26,705 bases of DNA. It comes from a virus. Positions within the stretch are counted from its first letter, which is position 1. Each line of letters begins with the position of its first letter. The stretch spans positions 1 through 26,705 of the IMG/VR virus record IMGVR_UViG_3300037584_005798; one strand, 5' to 3'. Below, piece after piece: positions 8,725-18,887 of the stretch. A program made the position numbers and the translations under genes. Under the pieces are notes generated by a model. The model had not been told where the DNA came from. It saw only the letters and a list, made by a program, of their open reading frames with translations, and searched no databases.

Positions 8725-10302
8725 TTATCCTTTGTAAATCCAGAAAAATTCTTTTGTTTTCTTTATCTCCTCCTCGTATTTCTGCGCGAACGTTTCTTTA
8801 TAAATCTTTTGACCTTTGATTTGAGTATTCATCGTTGTTGTCGATTTCATCAAACCACCAAGCATTGCCTTTTTATAAGCCATGTCTCTTTCATTTTCCG
8901 AGAGGGCTGTGTCGCGAACCCAACATGCAATTGCTAGGGACATAACCAAATCATCATTGTAAGAGCGCATTGCTTGAGGCTTGCCGTTGTGCCAAATAAA
9001 AGTTTTTAATTCGTGAAAAACACGATTGGAGTGTATATTAATTAGTTTGTTTCTAACGTACTCCTCCAATTTAGCAACGATTAAAGGTCTTGTCTTGGTT
9101 GAAGTTGTGAAGCCAAGAACTGCTCTATCGTCATTTTCGGCCAAATAAGACTCAACATACTCATGAGTTGATTTGATAGAGTAGTAAATCTTTTTGTAAT
9201 CCAACTCTTTTAATTTTTCCAAAACAGCTATCCCAATCCCATTGTTCTCCACAACAAGAAGGCAAGTTCCGTATTCTGTCCCAGCAGAATAGAGAATGTT
9301 TGAATACATATCTAAGTCTGGCTTGCCTTGATATTCTGCTACAACTGTCATGCTGTCTATTCTTAAGATGTGAAAACACGAGAAGTCACTTCCGTCGCCT
9401 CTTGCAACATCTGCTACAAGGATGTATGGAACACCCTCTTCGTATCTCTCCCAAATCCAATAGTTCCTATCATACCCGGTTTTGTATTCTGGTTCTCGAA
9501 TAAACTCGTGCATCCTTGTCAAATCTTCTGGGTTGATGACTGTTTCACCGGAAGCATTGAAAGAACACTCAAGCTCTTGTGCAATTTGTCTCTTAGACAT
9601 ATTTCGAGTCTCTTTTGTGTACCACTCCTCATTACGCTCAGGATGAACGTCCCACATAAGCTTTGTTGGGTAAAAATCATTCATTCCATTTTCAGATTCA
9701 GTATAGGCCTTGTGAAACCAGTTTCCTACACCGTTGGGAGTGGAGAGGGCTATACACCTACCCCCTGTTGACAGAGTGGGGTAGAGACCCGTCCAGAGCT
9801 CGTCAAGGCCATCTACAAAAGCAGCTTCGTCAATAATCAGAAGAGACAAAGCTTCTGAACGACCAGCATCCCCAGATGTTGTCCCAGCCTTTACTTGAGA
9901 GCCGTTTGTAAGTTCGAACGATTGCTTATTGTCTGTTGTAATCTTTGCAATCATCATCCACGACGGAAGGTTCTTGAAGATCATCTTGACTTTTTTTACA
10001 AGATTCGTCGCTGTTGATAGCTTAGTAGCGATAACAAGTACGTTCTTCTCTCGATGAAACAACATGAACCAAGCAACGTAGGCAGCAGAGATTGTTGAGA
10101 TCCCGAGCTGCCTTGCTTTTAATATAACGTTGAACCGATAATCATTAAAGGACTTGAGCATCTCTTTCTGATAGTCGTAGGTCTTGAAGGGTATTTGACC
10201 ATGCATTGGGTGCGAGATCTTGCAATAGTTATCGATAAAATATTGAGGATCTTTTCCGCACCTTACAAGTTCTTTGACAATTTCATTCTTAGTGAGATTC
10301 AC
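8725..10302 (-). CDS. 17: Terminase large subunit, T4 gp17-like
   Basis: 525 residues. ATPase domain: Walker A-like ARQLGIST (63-70), Walker B LLIIDEAA (154-161, with Asp158 and Glu159) and the coupling motif STPNG (187-191). RNase H-like nuclease domain: VADVARGDGSD with metal ligand Asp298, VVENNGIG with Glu352, and NDDLVMSLAIA near residue 465. Both domains are complete, and the length is close to that of T4 gp17 (about 610) minus terminal extensions. It translocates DNA into the prohead through the portal and cuts the concatemer. The start is GTG at 10302 with AAGGA upstream. The portal follows after 3 bases. No gp16-like small subunit is recognised. Confidence 0.95.
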   Translation of the reverse strand: MNLTKNEIVKELVRCGKDPQYFIDNYCKISHPMHGQIPFKTYDYQKEMLKSFNDYRFNVILKARQLGISTISAAYVAWFMLFHREKNVLVIATKLSTATNLVKKVKMIFKNLPSWMMIAKITTDNKQSFELTNGSQVKAGTTSGDAGRSEALSLLIIDEAAFVDGLDELWTGLYPTLSTGGRCIALSTPNGVGNWFHKAYTESENGMNDFYPTKLMWDVHPERNEEWYTKETRNMSKRQIAQELECSFNASGETVINPEDLTRMHEFIREPEYKTGYDRNYWIWERYEEGVPYILVADVARGDGSDFSCFHILRIDSMTVVAEYQGKPDLDMYSNILYSAGTEYGTCLLVVENNGIGIAVLEKLKELDYKKIYYSIKSTHEYVESYLAENDDRAVLGFTTSTKTRPLIVAKLEEYVRNKLINIHSNRVFHELKTFIWHNGKPQAMRSYNDDLVMSLAIACWVRDTALSENERDMAYKKAMLGGLMKSTTTMNTQIKGQKIYKETFAQKYEEEIKKTKEFFWIYKG

Positions 10303-10339: not shown

Positions 10340-10936
10340 TTAGATGTCATCAAATTCACTACCGGGAGCAGGCGCTGAAGCTGTCGGATCAGCGAAGTTG
10401 CTCATGAACTGCAGGAGTTTTCCTCGAGCATGATGTTGCCAATCAGATGACATCTTCCCAGCTATTTTACTGTCTTTCTGCTTACTGATTGTTGAATTGA
10501 TTAAAGCTTTCATTGCCAATGCTACACGGTTTCCAGCACTAACTTGGTTCAATGCTGCATAGGCTTCAAATAGATCTCGATTTTGTCTTTTCCACTTATT
10601 GAACTCTTGAATATTGGCGGCAGATTGTTTTGCTTGCTCTACCGGTTCTGCTACTTTCGACTTAAACTCTAGGTTTACAGTGTTAAACAGTCTCTCAATG
10701 GTTTCTCTAAATGAGTCTAGGTTTGGCTTCTGAACCACAAGTTCTTTCACTAGATCTCCCAAGTTTCCCTTGATTTGATCATAGTTGTCTGAGCCCCTGA
10801 TTAATCTAAAGAGAGCTTTACCCATTTCGACATCGGTCATATTCTCGCTTAAGACATCAGCGCTTTCTTGTTCGTTCATAACTGCTTCAAGCTCTTCTTT
10901 AATGATTTGCTTTAAATTTTGTTTTGTAAGTTTCAT
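10340..10936 (-). CDS. Tagged protein (MKLTK-type N-terminus), possible capsid cargo
   Basis: 198 residues of unknown family. It begins MKLTKQNLKQIIKEELEAVM, one of the seven tag copies, with Ile-Lys-Glu at 12-14. The rest is helical, with FNKWKRQNRDLFEAYAALNQ and a Pro/Ala-rich C-terminus. The ATG at 10936 is chosen because the tag starts there and the GGAG lies nine bases upstream, inside the preceding micro-gene. The open frame extends to 10999 only because it shadows that micro-gene. The gene sits just before the large terminase, where T4 has gp16, but I see no resemblance to gp16. The tag suggests packaging into the prohead and cleavage after Glu14 (inference). Confidence 0.75.
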   Translation of the reverse strand: MKLTKQNLKQIIKEELEAVMNEQESADVLSENMTDVEMGKALFRLIRGSDNYDQIKGNLGDLVKELVVQKPNLDSFRETIERLFNTVNLEFKSKVAEPVEQAKQSAANIQEFNKWKRQNRDLFEAYAALNQVSAGNRVALAMKALINSTISKQKDSKIAGKMSSDWQHHARGKLLQFMSNFADPTASAPAPGSEFDDI

Positions 10937-10940
10937 TTGT

Positions 10941-11012
10941 TTATTCTCCGCAACATTCACATGTACAGCATGGGCAGCAATTGCCACAACATTTTTCATC
11001 TAAGTTATTCAT
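10941..11012 (-). CDS. 23-residue Cys-rich metallothionein-like microprotein
   Basis: A complete 24-codon reading frame encoding a peptide whose core is CCGNCCPCCTCECCGE, after MNNLDEK. That is nine cysteines in 23 residues, in CC..CC.CC.C.CC order. It is placed like a real gene. Its ATG overlaps the stop of the 184-residue gene (ATGA), with AGGAGA upstream, and its own stop lies 4 bases before the next ATG, whose ribosome-binding site is contained in its last codons. Such Cys clustering is typical of metal-thiolate (Cu, Zn, Cd) peptides. I know of no named family that matches. Its small size and composition carry a risk of chance, but coupling on both sides argues against that. Confidence 0.6.
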   Translation of the reverse strand: MNNLDEKCCGNCCPCCTCECCGE

Positions 11013-11563
11013 TTTTGATTATCTCCTGGTTTAATAGTCTCGTTACTCGGTCGCTTTGCTTTCGCGGCTTGGAGAAACTTTTTAGTGATATCTCTGGTCA
11101 CATCTCCAGAGGGTGCGTTAATCTGGTCCATTTGCAACCCACCAATTTTATAGTGTTGGTATGCTTGGACAAAAGTTCGTACATTTGAAGTTGACTGGAC
11201 TATAATTTGAGGGTCACCCTTAGCCGTCAGAGAGACAGAATTACCAGTAATAGTCTTATATTCTTTCTGCAAAAACTTCTTTACTTCATTGATTGTGCGA
11301 ACGATGTCGTTTTCAAATCCATTGTCTTTGAGCTCTTTCATTCTAACATCTGATTGATAGTTGATAATCATAGAGTCTCCGTAGAACTTGACCTTAAATC
11401 CATCAATCACTCGCTTATCAAGAAGTGGGATTCCCTCTTCTCGCTTAAGTCCTACTTTGCGAATTTGCCCGTCAAGAGAATAGTTATCCATGTGAGCGCC
11501 ATCGTAAGCGTTGGCTGCTGCCTGGGAAAGTCCTCTAATAATTTCTAATGTTTCTTTGCTCAT
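11009..11563 (-). CDS. Conserved phage protein of unknown function
   Basis: 184 residues with no recognised domain. The N-terminus (MSKETLEIIRGLSQAAANAY) is helical. The body is mixed alpha/beta (FKVKFYGDSMIINYQSDVRM, then a long helix NDIVRTINEVKKFLQKEYKT), followed by a strand-rich segment (VSLTAKGDPQIIVQSTSNVR) and a basic tail. There is no signal peptide or membrane helix. It is translationally coupled to the Cys-rich microprotein (ATGA overlap) and lies in the small-gene run upstream of the terminase, so it is probably a virion or assembly protein. Confidence 0.65.
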   Translation of the reverse strand: MSKETLEIIRGLSQAAANAYDGAHMDNYSLDGQIRKVGLKREEGIPLLDKRVIDGFKVKFYGDSMIINYQSDVRMKELKDNGFENDIVRTINEVKKFLQKEYKTITGNSVSLTAKGDPQIIVQSTSNVRTFVQAYQHYKIGGLQMDQINAPSGDVTRDITKKFLQAAKAKRPSNETIKPGDNQK

Positions 11564-11870: not shown

Positions 11871-12188
11871 TTATTTCTCATTAACTTCAGACTCACCATT
11901 TTTAAGGAGAGTTACTTCAAATTCTACAGCGACAGGCTCAACCTGACCCATGTCTCGTTGAGAGTTGAATATAAAATACACGGTATCTTCACCTGGTTGA
12001 TTTTTGTGTGCTTCGATTGCTTGTTCTTCGAAGTCATCGATTGGGATTGAGATGCTCTCGAGTTTTTTCATAGCATCATCCGCAGCATCTTCAAACATGC
12101 CCAGTTGCATAGCAGCATCAGAAGTATACACTACATTTTCCAACTCTTCTCTAATAATTCTTTTTAAAGTTTCTTTTGTAAGCTTCAT
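11871..12188 (-). CDS. Tagged small protein (MKLTK-type N-terminus)
   Basis: 105 residues. The tag is MKLTKETLKRIIREELENVV (Ile-Arg-Glu at 12-14). The rest has an acidic helical part (AAMQLGMFEDAADDAMKKLE) and a beta-rich C-terminus (TVYFIFNSQRDMGQVEPVAV). No family is recognised. The ATG overlaps the stop of the Cys-pair protein by four bases (ATGA), so it is co-translated with it. The three tagged genes between 12188 and 10340, with two untagged genes between them, form a run ahead of the terminase. Confidence 0.75.
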   Translation of the reverse strand: MKLTKETLKRIIREELENVVYTSDAAMQLGMFEDAADDAMKKLESISIPIDDFEEQAIEAHKNQPGEDTVYFIFNSQRDMGQVEPVAVEFEVTLLKNGESEVNEK

Positions 12189-12553
12189 TTATTTGGTCTC
12201 CAACCTAATTTCCATCTGTCTTCTCGACCTTCCACGTATTGGATGTAACACTTAAAACAGCAGTCAAACTTTGTCATATAAACATCGTCAGCAGATTTGA
12301 ATGAATAAGTATTACATGTTGAACATGAACGATCTGATTCTTTATTAAGTAGTTCTTTTGATATTAAAACCCCATTTAGCTCAATCCTTTCGCCTTCATT
12401 TTTATCGTAGCGATAGTTTGACTTGAGTTCATCTAAGTATTCTTTTTCTTTATCATCATCCCATTGAGATTTGGGATTAATCACAGCTTCTTTGCCGTAT
12501 TTTTTTGCTATTGCTTGTTCAATTTTCACAGCATAGTTTGGATCTTTACTCAC
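12185..12553 (-). CDS. Small protein with two Cys pairs, possible zinc ribbon
   Basis: 122 residues from the chosen start. The N-terminal half is helical and charged (YAVKIEQAIAKKYGKEAVIN, WDDDKEKEYLDELKS). The C-terminal half has CSTC (77-80) and CCFKC (98-102), a CxxC-x17-CCxxC arrangement that could bind zinc, followed by a conserved-looking YVEGREDRWKLGWRP tail. I chose GTG at 12553, which has a GAGG five bases upstream and overlaps the previous gene by eight bases. The frame is open to 12688, but that part shadows the upstream gene. The family looks like one that recurs in marine T4-like phages; function unknown. Confidence 0.6.
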   Translation of the reverse strand: MSKDPNYAVKIEQAIAKKYGKEAVINPKSQWDDDKEKEYLDELKSNYRYDKNEGERIELNGVLISKELLNKESDRSCSTCNTYSFKSADDVYMTKFDCCFKCYIQYVEGREDRWKLGWRPNK

Positions 12554-12974
12554 TTTCACCTCGTTTTTGCCAATCATATGAAATTTTGTCCTCTTGAATT
12601 GGGCCTCCCTTTGCCCAAGTTCGGCACGATCTTGCACTGTGGCATTTAAAATGATGCATCCAGCAATAACCCAGTCGACCTTCATCATCAGAGGTTACAC
12701 CTGGCATGCAGGCGTCCATTCTGGGACTTATGTCGAAAGCAACACAATTGCCACAGTTTGATTTTTTTGCCGCTTTTTCTGTAGTATTCCAGTATTCTGC
12801 GATCTCTTCCCAGTAGTTCCCTGGCTCACTTACGTTGAGGGGACCATACTGAATGTAATCTGCCTTAATCGCAGCGTCACGGTTCTTTGTGTTTAATTTT
12901 AAATCTTTTGTAGCAGGTGGGCATGCCATCGCCACTACTTTTTTTATAATATTTTTGATTCTAATTTTTATCAT
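12546..12974 (-). CDS. Cys-rich protein, HiPIP-like cysteine spacing
   Basis: 142 residues. Six of its seven cysteines lie in the C-terminal half: C74-x2-C77-x11-C89-x14-C104-x6-C111-x5-C117, with the context NCGNCVAF, DACMPG, LGYCWMHHFKC and CRTWAKGGPI. The first four spacings and the Gly-(aromatic)-Cys-(aromatic) context recall high-potential iron-sulfur proteins (C-x2-C-x14-16-C-x13-C, G-W-C). A [4Fe-4S] or zinc site is therefore plausible, but this is inference from spacing. The N-terminal basic hydrophobic stretch (IKIRIKNIIKKVVAMA) precedes ACPPATKD; a start at 12929 is also possible but has no ribosome-binding site. The ATG at 12974 overlaps the upstream stop (ATGA). Confidence 0.6.
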   Translation of the reverse strand: MIKIRIKNIIKKVVAMACPPATKDLKLNTKNRDAAIKADYIQYGPLNVSEPGNYWEEIAEYWNTTEKAAKKSNCGNCVAFDISPRMDACMPGVTSDDEGRLGYCWMHHFKCHSARSCRTWAKGGPIQEDKISYDWQKRGESE

Positions 12975-13384
12975 TGTGTTGAGACCTCAATCTGATTGGC
13001 TGCGTAATATGTTAATAATGATGCAGAAGTACCAAGGACAAACCCTCCAAAGAAAACCCATGTTGACCTTTTGGTGCTGGAGTATTTCCTAAGGGTTGCT
13101 ATCTCCTCATCCTTAATCTCTATCATTGCATTGTATTTTGTCTGCAGTGCTTCTTTTTCAATCTCTAAATAGTCAATTTGAAGCTGTTTTTCGGCAATTT
13201 GTAACGAAAAATCTAAAGCAGCGTTAATGCTGCACTGCTCTTCTGCAAACTCTTTCATTGTGATAATTGAAGCGACTGCTTCATCATTGAATAGGCGACC
13301 AGCAAAGGGAGCTGGTTCACCTTCAATCAGAGGTGTCATAAGAGGTTCGGCGGCAACAAGGGAAGTTAGAAAAAATAAAATCAT
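12971..13384 (-). CDS. Secreted/membrane coiled-coil protein, possible lysis (spanin-like) component
   Basis: 137 residues. A short hydrophobic N-terminus (MILFFLTSLVAAEPL) looks like a signal peptide ending VAA. The conserved-looking EGEPAPFAGRLFNDEAVASI follows, then a coiled coil (LQIAEKQLQIDYLEIEKEAL, QTKYNAMIEIKDEEIATLRK), and near the C-terminus a transmembrane helix (STWVFFGGFVLGTSASLLTY). The APF-G-L-(x)n-EA segment recurs in phage proteins near lysis genes. Its place after two other small membrane proteins suggests a lysis cassette. It lacks a lipobox, so it is not a standard outer-membrane spanin. The start overlaps the upstream gene by four bases (ATGA). Confidence 0.6.
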   Translation of the reverse strand: MILFFLTSLVAAEPLMTPLIEGEPAPFAGRLFNDEAVASIITMKEFAEEQCSINAALDFSLQIAEKQLQIDYLEIEKEALQTKYNAMIEIKDEEIATLRKYSSTKRSTWVFFGGFVLGTSASLLTYYAANQIEVSTQ

Positions 13385-13749
13385 TTTAGCTTCGCAATGT
13401 TGAATTCTGTCATTAAGATTCTATCAATTCTATCAGGATCTTCTTTGGCAAGTTCGAGAAGCTCTAACTTTCTCTCTATTGTTTGCCTCTCTAAGTCATT
13501 TTGAGCTGAGGCTCTGCTCTTTATGAGGCTTAGTTTCGCCTCTGAGTATTTTTGTCTCGCTAGCGCTTTTTGTAGCCGCTCTTCTCCAGCGGATTTTTCT
13601 ATAACTTCAATTTCTTTGTTTTTTGATTCTGTGATATCTTCGACAACTTCTAGGTCCACATTTTTACTTTTGCGACCAAGAAGGAACACAAAAAGAACAG
13701 TGACTCCAGCGGCAAGAAATTCCCACTTATCTTTAATCCAGTCCCACAT
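13381..13749 (-). CDS. Single-pass membrane coiled-coil protein, possible i-spanin-like
   Basis: 122 residues. The N-terminal transmembrane helix (FLAAGVTVLFVFLLG, about 11-25) is followed by basic residues (RKSK) and a long charged coiled coil (SKNKEIEVIEKSAGEERLQK, then ALARQKYSEAKLSLIKSRAS). This N-in, coiled-coil-out architecture is that of inner-membrane spanins, but no sequence match is claimed. I chose the ATG at 13749 because it gives the TAATG overlap with the preceding gene and has GGAGG upstream; the frame is open to 13764. It lies between the holin-like gene and the spanin-like protein. Confidence 0.6.
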   Translation of the reverse strand: MWDWIKDKWEFLAAGVTVLFVFLLGRKSKNVDLEVVEDITESKNKEIEVIEKSAGEERLQKALARQKYSEAKLSLIKSRASAQNDLERQTIERKLELLELAKEDPDRIDRILMTEFNIAKLK

Positions 13750-13943
13750 TATCCGTTCCTCCAAGCTTTGGCAAAGTCAATCGCAGTTTGACCACCGATG
13801 TAAGTTACAGCAATCAGTCCCCAAGTGTCAGAGCTCAAGTCTGAGAAATACATTAGAGCAGTTGCCACTGCGAATACCAAAAGCTTTCGAGAGATAAGCT
13901 TCTCTTGAACAGCGTCGAGCATCCCTTTGTCTTCGTTTTCCAT
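13749..13943 (-). CDS. Small two-helix membrane protein, holin-like
   Basis: 64 residues. It starts MENEDKGMLDAVQEKLISRK, then has two hydrophobic segments, LLVFAVATALMYFS and WGLIAVTYIGGQTAIDF, separated by the polar SDLSSDT, and a basic C-terminus (KAWRNG). The size and topology are those of a class II or III holin; the assignment rests on topology and neighbours, not on a family match. The ATG at 13943 has GGAGG upstream (an in-frame TTG at 13958 overlaps the ribosome-binding site and is rejected). It is the first gene after an ACTATTTA element, consistent with late expression. Confidence 0.6.
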   Translation of the reverse strand: MENEDKGMLDAVQEKLISRKLLVFAVATALMYFSDLSSDTWGLIAVTYIGGQTAIDFAKAWRNG

Positions 13944-13984: not shown

Positions 13985-16900
13985 TTACAAATTGACATAT
14001 GCATATCCATCGCTTTTGTCAATATCAATAGTCATGTCAACAACATCCTTCAATTGTTCTAGGTGAGTGATCAACAATACTGTCTTGAATTGACTCTTAA
14101 TCATTTGTAGAAGTCTTGTGAATCCTTCCATATGTTCTGCATCAAGAGCTGTTGCAGGTTCATCGAGAACAAATATATTTGACTTTGGCAATGAAGAGAC
14201 AGAAATCAGTGCAAGACGTACAGCCATGGATGCAATGGTCTTTTCAGCCCCCGAACCCATAGATAGTGGTCTTGGATCATACTTTGGGTGTTGCAGATAT
14301 ATTTCTAGTTTATCACTATCTTCGGCAAAAAACACTTGAAACTCTACTATAGAGGAAAGAACTTTTTGAATTTCCTCATTGATAACTGGAAGCATCGATT
14401 TGATTACCTCATAGGATATGCCGTTTGCATGAGTTGCTTTTACAAAAATATCATATGCAATGTAGTCTCTCTCTGCATCTTTGATTTGTTGGATCCTTTC
14501 TGATGCCTCTGAGATCATTCTTTCCGCTGATCCTTTCTCAGACATAAATTCCAGAACCTTGTTTTCGCACCTTTTGATCTCGGTGGTTTTTAATTCTACA
14601 GTTTTTGTAATTGCACTTAGGTCTCGCTGTAGAGCACACAAGTTCTCATATGCTTCAATATTGTCATTGTAATAATTTATATCTATTTCATAGTCTTCAA
14701 TTTGACGAACCAGTAAGGATTTTTTGCCTTCACAATTTTCCCTCTGTAAAGACATGTTTCGAACCTCCGTCTGTAGTCTTAAGAGAGCATCTTTCTGAAC
14801 CTCATAATCAGTGACTATTGCTTCCAAGCGTTCTTGATCAAACAATGACGACTTCATCTTCAAGTCAAGCATAGTTGAATTCATGCTTTCGATATTAGCA
14901 ATCACACCAACAATGGTTACTTTTGCTTCTTCTGCTTTCTTGACAAACTCGTTATTACTGCAGAATTCACAATTTGGATCATATTCATGGTCATGCAACA
15001 TATCAATCTTGGATTGTAGTCTCGATCTTTCTCTTTTTGCTTTTTCAATTAACTTATTGGTTTCACTCATTTGCTCCTTCAACATTACTAGAGATTGCAA
15101 CTCTCCTGCTGCTCTAGTTGAGTCTTCAAGCCAAGATGGCAGTCTAGACATCAAATGCTCGATTTTAGAGCGTTTAGAAGTGATCTCGGTAGATAACCTA
15201 TCTACTTCTTCAGAGTTGCTTAAAAGCGATTTACGAGCCTTTGAGAGCATCTTTTTTAGATCATCAATATCTATCTCCTTTTGAGATGCTGCTGCGACTT
15301 GATCTTGAATCAATTGTTGTTCCGACTTTAGAACATCGAGCCTAGATGTATGTTTCTCACACAGATTTTTTTGCATCTCTATGTCTTCCAGTATCTCGCA
15401 AAGCTCCGCTTTTGAGCGTGACAGTTTTCTATCCCAGTCCGCAGATTGAAGATGCTTGATCACACCTCGCATTTCTGCGGAATCTTGCTTTGCTAGTTTG
15501 TGCATTTGTTCAAAAATCTGTAGATCTAAAAATTTTGCAAGAATTTCTTTTCTTTTAGTTGAACCTTCGTTTATGAATCCAAAAGATTCATTCTGTGCAG
15601 CAAGAGAGGTCATCATAAAATCCTCAAGAGATCCAAATGTATTTCTTATGTTCTCATCGGTCTTATTTCGAGTATCTCCATTTTTCGACTCCGCTTTTGT
15701 GCCAAGTGCATATTTGGTGAAGTCTAGGTCTGTTTTGGCGGAGTTTGTTTCTTTGCCTTTAGACCTGATGGTTGTTTTTTCGAGAGATCGATTAACTTTG
15801 TATAGATCATCGCCGACAGCGATCTCGAGTTTACAAAGAGCTCTTTCTTGGTTTTGATTGATGATATGGACATTCTTTCTTTCTCCTTTGGAAGTTGTAT
15901 TAAATAACCCAAATAGGGCAGCATCAATGATCGAGGATTTTCCGGAATAGTTTTTTCCGAAGATCCCTACGAGTCCATTTAGTTTAGAAAAGTCAAGCGT
16001 ATTTCCCTTTCCGTAATTAAATAGATAGTTCCACTGCATTTTCTTAATATCCCAAACAACATTTCGAGCCATACCAGAAGAAGTGTCAACCTTCTTTAGA
16101 TAGTCTCGAGATAGTTCAACAACCTTTTCCCTAACAGAATCATCAATTTCTTGATTTGACATGAACTCTCGTAAGAACTTTTCTTGATTCTTTGGATCTC
16201 TCATGTTTAAAGCCTTTCCATTTTTAGCAGAATCTATTTGCCCCGATGAAGATCCGTTGTTAACGAAACTTACAGAGTAGGTGGACCATTTAATTTGTGC
16301 GTAATCGCAAGCTCGCTTTAGTTTTGCTAATGGTAAATTGTGGTTACACACCAATCTCAATCTAGAGTTTTTTGGTACATCTGCCTTAGGCAATGTTCCA
16401 TCTTGATTCAAGTGTATTGTTACAAATGGTCTAGGAGATCGAAACAATCTCTTTTCAATAGAGTGCCTATCCTTGTTGTGGATGTTCCAAATAAGATATC
16501 CTTTGAGTTGAGATTCTCCAAAGTTCTGCTGGACGGTAGAACCAGCATACCACACTCTCTGTTCAGTATCTAGATGTTGCGTTCTGTGGATGTCTCCAAG
16601 CATGGCATAGTCAAAATCTTTAAAGATTGATAGGTCATCCTCTCCATGATCAAGAGAGAATCCCGAGCCAACCTGAGATCCGCGAACAGCACCATGATAT
16701 AAGGCAATGTTTATTGATTTTGAGTTAGACGGAGATCTCCAGTTCTCTCTATCAAATACGGACAGGACGTTGAATGTAAGCCCTGGTTCGGGGGAATATT
16801 CCCCAGAATCTTTTAACAAAGTAAAGTTTGGATGATCCAGCGCTTCTATGATTGGTGTCACAGCATCTTGTCTATCTCCGTTTTTAAGATTACCATCGTG

Positions 16901-17140
16901 GTTCCCCAAGATCATAATTGTGGGCGCTATATCTGCTAGACTCTTTAAAAAGTTGGATGCCATCTCAAAATACTCAGGAGATAGTTGCGTCTTTGTGTGA
17001 GCAAGATCGCCGGTATGTACAATGTAATCTGGTTGCTCCTGCTTTAAAGAGTCATAAATGTTATTAAAGACGTGACGATATTCGTCATGATATTTTAAGT
17101 TTCGGATATGTGTATCGCTAATGTGTGCAATTCGTTTCAT
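13985..17140 (-). CDS. Fused SbcD-SbcC (Mre11-Rad50; T4 gp47-gp46) recombination nuclease
   Basis: 1051 residues. Residues 1-290 are a calcineurin-like phosphoesterase: ISDTHI (Asp9, His11), HTGDLAH (Asp45), GNHDGN (Asn80, His81) and GDIHRTQ. From about 375 on it is a Rad50/SbcC ATPase: Walker A GIFGKNYSGKSS (about 391-402), a long coiled coil with a CEFC zinc hook (about 721-724), the ABC signature LSMGSGAEKT, Walker B NIFVLDEPATALD (near 987) and a His switch ITHLEQ. The two halves are separate genes in T4 and in E. coli. Role: resection of DNA ends for recombination-dependent replication. I chose the ATG at 17140 (GGAGGG seven bases upstream); an earlier in-frame codon at 17173 lies inside the promoter. 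There is no frameshift in the linker. Confidence 0.93.
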   Translation of the reverse strand: MKRIAHISDTHIRNLKYHDEYRHVFNNIYDSLKQEQPDYIVHTGDLAHTKTQLSPEYFEMASNFLKSLADIAPTIMILGNHDGNLKNGDRQDAVTPIIEALDHPNFTLLKDSGEYSPEPGLTFNVLSVFDRENWRSPSNSKSINIALYHGAVRGSQVGSGFSLDHGEDDLSIFKDFDYAMLGDIHRTQHLDTEQRVWYAGSTVQQNFGESQLKGYLIWNIHNKDRHSIEKRLFRSPRPFVTIHLNQDGTLPKADVPKNSRLRLVCNHNLPLAKLKRACDYAQIKWSTYSVSFVNNGSSSGQIDSAKNGKALNMRDPKNQEKFLREFMSNQEIDDSVREKVVELSRDYLKKVDTSSGMARNVVWDIKKMQWNYLFNYGKGNTLDFSKLNGLVGIFGKNYSGKSSIIDAALFGLFNTTSKGERKNVHIINQNQERALCKLEIAVGDDLYKVNRSLEKTTIRSKGKETNSAKTDLDFTKYALGTKAESKNGDTRNKTDENIRNTFGSLEDFMMTSLAAQNESFGFINEGSTKRKEILAKFLDLQIFEQMHKLAKQDSAEMRGVIKHLQSADWDRKLSRSKAELCEILEDIEMQKNLCEKHTSRLDVLKSEQQLIQDQVAAASQKEIDIDDLKKMLSKARKSLLSNSEEVDRLSTEITSKRSKIEHLMSRLPSWLEDSTRAAGELQSLVMLKEQMSETNKLIEKAKRERSRLQSKIDMLHDHEYDPNCEFCSNNEFVKKAEEAKVTIVGVIANIESMNSTMLDLKMKSSLFDQERLEAIVTDYEVQKDALLRLQTEVRNMSLQRENCEGKKSLLVRQIEDYEIDINYYNDNIEAYENLCALQRDLSAITKTVELKTTEIKRCENKVLEFMSEKGSAERMISEASERIQQIKDAERDYIAYDIFVKATHANGISYEVIKSMLPVINEEIQKVLSSIVEFQVFFAEDSDKLEIYLQHPKYDPRPLSMGSGAEKTIASMAVRLALISVSSLPKSNIFVLDEPATALDAEHMEGFTRLLQMIKSQFKTVLLITHLEQLKDVVDMTIDIDKSDGYAYVNL

Positions 17141-17159
17141 TTGCCCTCCACGGCTTATA

Positions 17160-17456
17160 TTATAATTTAACACGTTTTTCTTTGTGTGTCAAGTAATTTT
17201 TTTCATTTTTATCATAAAAAAGTGGACCATTCTTCATAAATGTTAAGTCGATCACATTGTAATCAAACCACTCAAGAGCTTCAACTGCATCCATATCTGA
17301 ATTGTCTTTGAAGCATTTCAAAAGCTCATCAACTTCGTAAACCAATCTTCCATGCTCTTTGTCAAATCCAACAATCGCTTTATTCAAGTCTGATTGTGGC
17401 TCAAGCACCACAAAATTATAGCCGGCTTCAACACCGTCCTTTATAAATTTATTCAT
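17160..17456 (-). CDS. Small conserved phage protein of unknown function
   Basis: 98 residues, acidic, soluble. It contains AIVGFDKEHGRLVYEVDELL and VEALEWFDYNVIDLTFMKNG, the latter resembling small proteins common in T4-like marine phages; no function is known to me. The GGAGG lies seven bases before the ATG, and the gene has its own sigma70 promoter. Its last ten codons double as the promoter of the SbcCD fusion gene, so its C-terminal sequence (LTHKEKRVKL) may be constrained by that. Confidence 0.7.
   Translation of the reverse strand: MNKFIKDGVEAGYNFVVLEPQSDLNKAIVGFDKEHGRLVYEVDELLKCFKDNSDMDAVEALEWFDYNVIDLTFMKNGPLFYDKNEKNYLTHKEKRVKL
17164..17192 (-). promoter_or_regulatory. Sigma70-like early promoter for the SbcCD fusion
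   Basis: TTGACA (17192-17187), 17 bases ending in GTGT, then TAAATT (17169-17164). It lies inside the last codons of the upstream 98-residue gene, whose stop overlaps the -10. A short leader follows with GTGGAGGGC before the ATG at 17140. Confidence 0.8.
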
Positions 17457-17757: not shown

Positions 17758-18669
17758 TTACTCTATATGTCCTGTTCCTACAACTGACCATTCAAGCTGC
17801 GCATCTACATAGCCATTGAGCCCTTCATATGGAACTCTTTGTTGAGAAAATCTTGTCATGTAAATCGCAGTCAATGACCAAGTCGGATATGATTGAAAAT
17901 AAGACCCATCAAAAAGATAAGACCCAGTGTCTTGTGTTGAACAAGATATTACGCCTAACAACTGGCTGCCATCTGGTGAGTATGTTGCTATTGTTATATT
18001 GAAAAGGTCTGGTCCACCAGATGGACCCCATTGGAATTGTGTTCCGAATTTAGACACAACAGCGGCAAAGGCATAGGAAATGTCAACATAACGCATTTCA
18101 TAGGGCTCAATAAAATCAAATCCATGGATGGAGCGAAACTGAAGTGATGAGCCGTCTTGCATCTGGACATTCATATTTGTGTCTCGATCATATTGAGATT
18201 CCTGAATAAAGCCAGTGTAAGTATTCATTCCATTGTTAAAAGCAGAGAAAGAGTTTGGACTCCCAACAACGCTCAGGGATTGCCCCACGCTCTTGGTGTC
18301 GACACCTATGGTTAGTGGATTAGTGTTGGTTGTGCACTGACCCATAGGTGGAAACCAAGTTGGATGATTTTCTCCAATCTTTTCATGAAACTTGGCATCA
18401 AACTGAATTGTGATTTCTTGACTCACGCCCATGCATGCTTGACAAGCAATCTGCTCTAGATTGAAATTTATAAGCCCTACAGTGCCGTTCAAAGGCTCGC
18501 TAGATGGTTCTCCACTAGGTTCGCTAGATGGCTCCCAAGAAGGCTCCGAAGAGGGTTGAGAGACCGCTGTGTCGACCACCTCGATTCCTGTATCAGCAGG
18601 TTGGATTTTATCGACGGTTCTGATTCCGATGTCTCCACCGCAAGCAAGTAGCAAAAGTGATAACAGCAT
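17758..18669 (-). CDS. Phage-encoded lipoprotein with SEP-repeat linker
   Basis: 303 residues. A short hydrophobic N-terminus with a lipobox-like LLLAC (Cys10) is followed by an Asp/Thr-rich stretch and the repeat SQPSSEPSWEPSSEPSGEP, then a mainly beta domain of about 240 residues containing CQAC and two further Cys. The ATG at 18669 has AGGAG overlapping the upstream stop codon. A TTG at 18720 in the same frame would give a more usual positively charged signal peptide (MRTSRYIHNN...) but overlaps the Smr gene, so the start is uncertain. Known: PSSEPS-type linkers occur in surface lipoproteins, notably of myxobacterial-type bacteria. Inference: acquired from a host and shown on the infected cell, perhaps for superinfection exclusion. 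No homologue of the C-terminal domain is recognised. Confidence 0.7.
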   Translation of the reverse strand: MLLSLLLLACGGDIGIRTVDKIQPADTGIEVVDTAVSQPSSEPSWEPSSEPSGEPSSEPLNGTVGLINFNLEQIACQACMGVSQEITIQFDAKFHEKIGENHPTWFPPMGQCTTNTNPLTIGVDTKSVGQSLSVVGSPNSFSAFNNGMNTYTGFIQESQYDRDTNMNVQMQDGSSLQFRSIHGFDFIEPYEMRYVDISYAFAAVVSKFGTQFQWGPSGGPDLFNITIATYSPDGSQLLGVISCSTQDTGSYLFDGSYFQSYPTWSLTAIYMTRFSQQRVPYEGLNGYVDAQLEWSVVGTGHIE

Positions 18670-18677
18670 AGTCTCTC

Positions 18678-18887
18678 CTAGTGTGACTTTATTATTATGT
18701 ATGTACCTAGAGGTTCGCAAACAAAATCAAGATTGTAGGACTCTGCTGTTGATGAGACGACACATCTCATTAAACTTGAGTGACCCGTTATGATCTTGAG
18801 CATTTTGCCCCAATGGTCATTAATAAATAGTTCAAGTTTGCGTTTAGCGTCTTCATGTCGCAATCCATGCAAATCTAGCGTTAGCAT
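18678..18887 (-). CDS. Minimal Smr-domain protein
   Basis: 69 residues, hardly more than the domain itself. LTLDLHGLRHEDAKRKLELF at the N-terminus carries the LDLHG motif of Smr domains, and KIITGHSSLM carries the TGH(G/S) motif, here with Ser in place of the second Gly. Known: Smr domains occur in MutS2 and SmrB and act as DNA or RNA endonucleases; SmrB cleaves mRNA at collided ribosomes. Inference: a phage RNA/DNA-nicking or mRNA-handling protein. The ATG at 18887 has GGAGA five bases upstream, directly after the terminator U-tract. The open frame to 19010 runs backwards through the terminator and tRNA and is not coding. Confidence 0.75.
   Translation of the reverse strand: MLTLDLHGLRHEDAKRKLELFINDHWGKMLKIITGHSSLMRCVVSSTAESYNLDFVCEPLGTYIIIKSH
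18824..18831 (-). promoter_or_regulatory. ACTATTTA copy inside the Smr gene
   Basis: A coding-strand ACTATTTA in the ELF codons of the Smr gene, about 155 bases upstream of the lipoprotein start. It could serve as a late promoter for the lipoprotein, or be chance. Confidence 0.25.

Follow-up and report, generated by a model that had tools for sequence, protein, structure and literature searches.

Can a frame of only 72 bases be a phage gene, and what might a peptide that is two-fifths cysteine do? These questions are raised by positions 10941..11012 of a 26.7-kb virus record (IMGVR_UViG_3300037584_005798), which was analyzed over its whole length of 26,705 nucleotides, here called the window. 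The phage is marine and T4-like; a comparison of terminases puts it nearest, among named phages, to Flavobacterium phage immuto (47%), followed by Microcystis phage Mel-JY01 (44%). Read from 11012 to 10941, the frame translates into the 23-residue peptide MNNLDEKCCGNCCPCCTCECCGE with nine Cys and a TAA stop, as a preliminary description of this DNA had reported; the strand, which had been left unstated there, is the minus strand. The expression signals named in that description were also seen. The ATG of the microprotein gene overlaps the preceding stop codon (ATGA), and this TGA belongs to the upstream gene of a 184-aa protein (11009..11563, minus strand). An AGGAGA ribosome-binding site is located at 11022..11027 on the minus strand, 9 nt before the ATG and within the 3' end of the 184-aa gene, and GGAGA is retained upstream of the ATG in most relatives. 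The microprotein stop lies 4 nt before the ATG (10936) of the next gene, which encodes a 198-aa protein with the N-terminal tag MKLTKQNLKQIIKEELEAVM (10340..10936, minus strand), and the final microprotein codons, GGAGAA, occupy the position expected for the ribosome-binding site of this tagged gene. The terminase large subunit is encoded at 8725..10302, minus strand (PHROG terminase large subunit, E 3.6e-52). The function of the 184-aa protein is unassigned; it has hundreds of relatives in IMG/VR, with no PHROG match, no significant Pfam match and no match among the phages searched. N-terminal tags like MKLTKETLKQIIKEELEAVM are common to several unrelated genes of the window (approximate minus-strand starts 10936, 11860, 12188, 21269, 21560, 22783 and 23346) and to many more in relatives, and may be capsid-targeting or prohead-protease propeptides.

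The microprotein is a genuine gene, and its cysteines are under strong selection. This conclusion is based on its occurrence as a family in 19 contigs, on a synonymous bias at the Cys codons and on the result of sequence shuffling. The family comprises 19 marine phage contigs including the window, with the gene at the terminase-side junction in 15 and in the holin-side region in four; 17 of them came from scanning 2.9 million viral contigs with a strict pattern, and contig L017 and the window were added to these. Among 80 loci fetched via the 184-aa protein, 13 had, at the corresponding ATGA junction, a frame for 23 residues that is rich in Cys. Ten copies from the terminase side have together kept 89 of their 90 Cys codons, with both TGT and TGC in use in eight of the nine Cys columns. 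Parsimony on these ten close copies, with a tree of the neighbouring 184-aa gene, gave 18 third-base (synonymous) substitutions versus a single first- or second-base (amino-acid-changing) one in the Cys codons (p at most 3e-11, kappa up to 4). The non-Cys residues Gly10, Asn11 and Pro14 are mostly kept among the terminase-side copies, and L017 (MNNVQDECCPICKCKCCECDCCE) keeps nine Cys with a different spacing. In 300 first-order shuffled windows, no frame that starts with ATG and has up to 40 codons reached nine Cys. The microprotein shows that frames under the usual gene-calling limits can face very strong selection.

A scan of genome contigs revealed no cellular relative of the microprotein; its four matches were, by translation, unrelated low-complexity or chance frames. 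A tblastn comparison of the peptide with named phages gave no match either, a result of little weight because of the low-complexity filter. A scan with the loose pattern CCx2CCxCCxC was dropped, as it returned chiefly antisense GCA/TGC repeats, and looser matches in large contigs were out-of-frame pieces of long genes with the exception of L209. The idea that a frameshift extends the 184-aa protein into this frame was set aside, because the copies in a second clade (clade B) stand free behind a different gene.

The microprotein cassette is optional. When the same locus was checked in relatives for conserved short Cys-rich frames, as had been proposed, 12 of the 60 distinct close relatives, a number that includes the window, had them, and the cassette was absent from the other 48. 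The next gene is tagged in ten of the cassette-bearing relatives and is the terminase in two; among those without the cassette it is tagged in 34, the terminase in 13 and another gene in one. In cassette-free relatives the stop of the 184-aa gene abuts the next gene, leaving an empty junction with no remnant or broken frame. A broken frame or unconserved cysteines between kept flanking genes had been named in the preliminary description as evidence against a gene, and the relatives that keep the flanks either retain the Cys or lose the whole cassette. At least seven gains or losses were placed on the tree, an approximate count, since the tree was built quickly from one gene and many of its forks are open. 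Since most relatives are without any Cys module, the microprotein is not essential.

The proposed coupling of the microprotein into an operon of head and tagged genes applies to the genome studied here but not to all carriers. In L002 and L017 the terminase follows directly, hence the microprotein can do without the tagged gene; its place in another clade is beside a holin-like gene. The tagged 198-aa gene is itself variable cargo, as in relatives the junction holds a different tagged gene or lacks one. The head/tag link is thus not a constant association, and the recurrent neighbour across clades is the holin-like lysis gene.

In the window, this gene encodes a small membrane protein of 64 aa (13749..13943, minus strand), recognized through the family alignment and through phrog_9987 matches among its homologues. 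The microprotein gene of the window's clade is located 2.7 kb downstream of it, beside the head genes, and the holin-like protein of the window has no Cys extension. The most frequent PHROG match of the family, phrog_9987 (holin), was obtained for 14 of 23 members and is weak (best E 4.5e-4), and nothing relevant was found in Pfam. In the homologue from L232 the match spans residues 59-86, outside the Cys-rich N-terminal extension; a low-confidence predicted model of this protein has helices at 43-58 and 62-72 after a disordered Cys-rich N-terminus, with a pLDDT of 42-51 in the extension. No segment of the window protein exceeds a simple hydropathy cut. In the linked protein, the placement of basic residues on both sides of the hydrophobic part, together with acidic ones in the middle loop, suggests that both ends are cytoplasmic. 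Judged from its sequence, the linked membrane protein is a probable rather than an established holin. The adjacent gene at 13381..13749 (minus strand) is a candidate for an Rz-like inner-membrane spanin: its homologues weakly match Rz-like spanin PHROGs (E 0.005-0.02), and its sequence reads as a hydrophobic N-terminal stretch with a charged helical remainder. A 137-aa protein encoded at 12971..13384 (minus strand) adjoins the Rz-like gene and has a hydrophobic segment at residues 2-20 and no family match; it is a candidate spanin partner.

Cys modules are linked to the holin-like gene by both adjacency and fusion in the sister clades. In clade B, three contigs (L078, L210 and L212) have the CCx2CCPCCxCx pattern immediately after the holin-like gene, whose end contains a GGAGG as the likely ribosome-binding site of the peptide; in L209 a CCx2CCPCC-pattern peptide is found behind it with one tagged gene in between. 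In L254, L260, L263 and L264 the position just behind the holin-like gene is taken by an unrelated mini-ORF, Cys-rich too but different at its N-terminus, for example MKAFLHKLANLFNSAHCCCCCGCCACVSCQSGC, possibly an amphipathic helix plus a Cys tail. A third clade (clade C, 38 rows, support 100) has the holin-like gene visible in 25 rows, and in all 25 a Cys-containing N-terminal extension is fused to it. These extensions, with Cys, His and acidic residues, contain at least six Cys in 20 rows and two to four in the remaining five. Their aligned Cys are kept amid changes elsewhere in all ungapped pairs compared except the most diverged. The fused holin-like protein had no match among the phages or plasmids searched. 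Two large contigs, of 191.7 and 187.4 kb, each contain a single stand-alone frame with at least eight Cys in 16 residues, namely the peptide neighbouring the holin-like gene. For fused and second-type modules the search covered ~4-6 kb of sequence around the genes for the 184-aa and holin-like proteins, plus the whole of the two large contigs. This regional search is biased toward finding holin links, a bias from which the type-1 pattern scan is free. All relatives are metagenomic contigs. We infer a common origin of the free peptide and the fused extension, which is not provable at such length, and their likeness may be convergent.

The dense CC and CxC motifs, the lack of aromatic residues and the selection on Cys suggest a metal-thiolate peptide, and the occurrence of three module formats on one membrane protein suggests that it acts on the holin-like protein, probably as a cytosolic regulator. 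The reading that we tentatively prefer, at somewhat less than an even chance, is that of a cytosolic metal-thiolate peptide which is the free counterpart of a domain elsewhere attached to the holin, acts in trans and gates lysis. What we infer here is that the peptide binds metal, that it is cytoplasmic, that the membrane protein is a holin and that lysis is affected at all. The peptide would be produced late, together with the lysis and packaging genes, and in the cytosol the Cys of its free 22-23 residues would bind metal, most likely Zn(II) or Cu(I), as a thiolate cluster. It would represent the free-standing form of a Cys module which in sister phages is either part of the holin-like protein, at its cytoplasmic N-terminus, or encoded directly behind the gene of that protein. 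Acting at the inner membrane face on the holin-like protein, it would cause hole formation to be delayed or gated by the metal or thiol state. The proposed anatomy resembles that of a small cytosolic antiholin. RIII of phage T4 is larger and is not a Cys-rich metal-thiolate peptide. As a cytosolic antiholin that binds the cytoplasmic domain of the holin T (PMC11413866), RIII is a precedent for the proposed position and not a relative, the link in our phages consisting of fusion and adjacency. A wider formulation, in which a detachable metallothionein-like module, either holin-fused or a peptide of 20-39 residues, gates lysis as a metal- or redox-gated clock, appears rather unlikely. The recurrent holin-like pairing leads to the testable proposal that lysis timing in this group of uncultured marine myoviruses responds to metal or redox state.

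The main rival to a lysis regulator is a general metallothionein-like accessory buffer, which would sequester Zn, Cu or Cd or quench oxidants without any specific target, its placement near lysis genes reflecting late expression only. We regard this as a real possibility. Its nine Cys in 23 residues, arranged in CC and CxC motifs, and the lack of His and aromatic residues place the peptide within the general composition range of metallothioneins (Cys ~30% or more, CC/CxC, few aromatics), in agreement with the metallothionein-like Cys density proposed before. The bacterial metallothioneins SmtA/BmtA have over 50 residues, His ligands and a folded zinc site. Like these proteins (Metallothio_Pro), the microprotein is Cys-rich and a presumed metal ligand in the bacterial cell; unlike them, it has 23 residues, no His and no Metallothio_Pro profile match. 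Up to E 10 the peptide matched no family at all in Pfam or NCBIfam, metallothioneins included, in a comparison whose sensitivity is limited by the short length. The statement that it is far shorter than known bacterial metallothioneins is correct, but its size is not unprecedented: the fungal family 8 copper-thioneins of Neurospora crassa and Agaricus bisporus have 26 aa and 7 Cys in the pattern X2-CXC-X5-CXC-X3-CXC-X2-C-X3 (PMC4755600). The microprotein shares with them the very short length, the dominance of Cys and the absence of an export signal, whereas its CCx2CCxCCxCxCC arrangement with four CC pairs differs from their CxC repeats (PMC4755600) and falls outside the family pattern; there is no measurable homology, and the likeness is one of composition. 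The open-access literature searched describes neither a phage metallothionein, in line with the earlier claim that such phage peptides are undescribed, nor a Cys-rich holin domain. Should the microprotein indeed bind metal, few natural metal-thiolate proteins would be shorter, and within the literature searched it would be the first described in phage. A buffer also fits the patchy presence of the cassette with its repeated gains or losses on the tree, the variation in Cys number and spacing, as in L017, and the two operon positions. Against it stand the missing match to any metallothionein model and the convergence of three Cys-rich formats on one holin-like gene, which a buffer leaves unexplained.

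In all copies of the window's clade the microprotein is translationally coupled to the 184-aa gene, which would suit a structural microprotein with zinc or an iron-sulfur centre whose partner is the 184-aa protein or the adjoining tagged head protein. Such a role is improbable, however, because the 48 close relatives without the cassette have the same 184-aa gene, the tagged genes beside the microprotein differ or are missing, and the clade-B microprotein is located away from the 184-aa gene. A thiol/disulfide redox peptide, serving as an oxidant sink or as a counter-defence factor through disulfide exchange and not through metal, would explain the conservation of Cys as well as metal binding does. 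We consider it quite improbable, since the dense CC/CxC pairs, like the combination of Cys, His, Asp and Glu in the fused forms, are more suggestive of metal ligands and the cytosol is reducing. Even less probable is a leader peptide whose nine Cys codons would make ribosomes pause and so adjust how the next gene is translated. The frame is very short and directly coupled to that gene, and TGT/TGC interchange would be neutral under such a model too, but the conservation of Gly10, Asn11 and Pro14 and the variable downstream gene argue against it, as do the fused Cys-rich stretches of clade C; moreover, RNA folding at the locus was weaker than in shuffles (z +1.19), with no Rfam match. A spurious frame, for which its mere length could speak, can practically be dismissed given the synonymous bias of its Cys codons, its coupled positions in the 19 contigs and the shuffled windows.

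Several other genes were noted in the window, all on the minus strand. A 142-aa protein (12546-12974) with a conserved CGNC...GYCWMHHFKCHSARSC set is present in some relatives, not all, and is possibly an iron-sulfur or zinc protein; an association of the microprotein with this CGNC-type protein looked weak (4/8 vs 8/57, counts uncorrected for relatedness). A conserved zinc-ribbon-like protein with the motifs SCSTCNTYSF...CCFKCY is encoded at 12185-12688 and also occurs in the clade-B loci read. The 1062-aa gene at 13985-17173 combines an SbcD-type metallophosphoesterase and an SbcC-type ATPase in one frame (the roles of T4 gp47 and gp46), and a 320-aa lipoprotein-like protein with a PSSEPS repeat (17758-18720) looks host-acquired. 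In L376 and L387, a second conserved Cys-rich mini-ORF, ending in CPxCECDPCDCxWGxY, was found away from the lysis block, at ~121249-121432 of the 191.7-kb contig and ~151623-151776 of the 187.4-kb contig.
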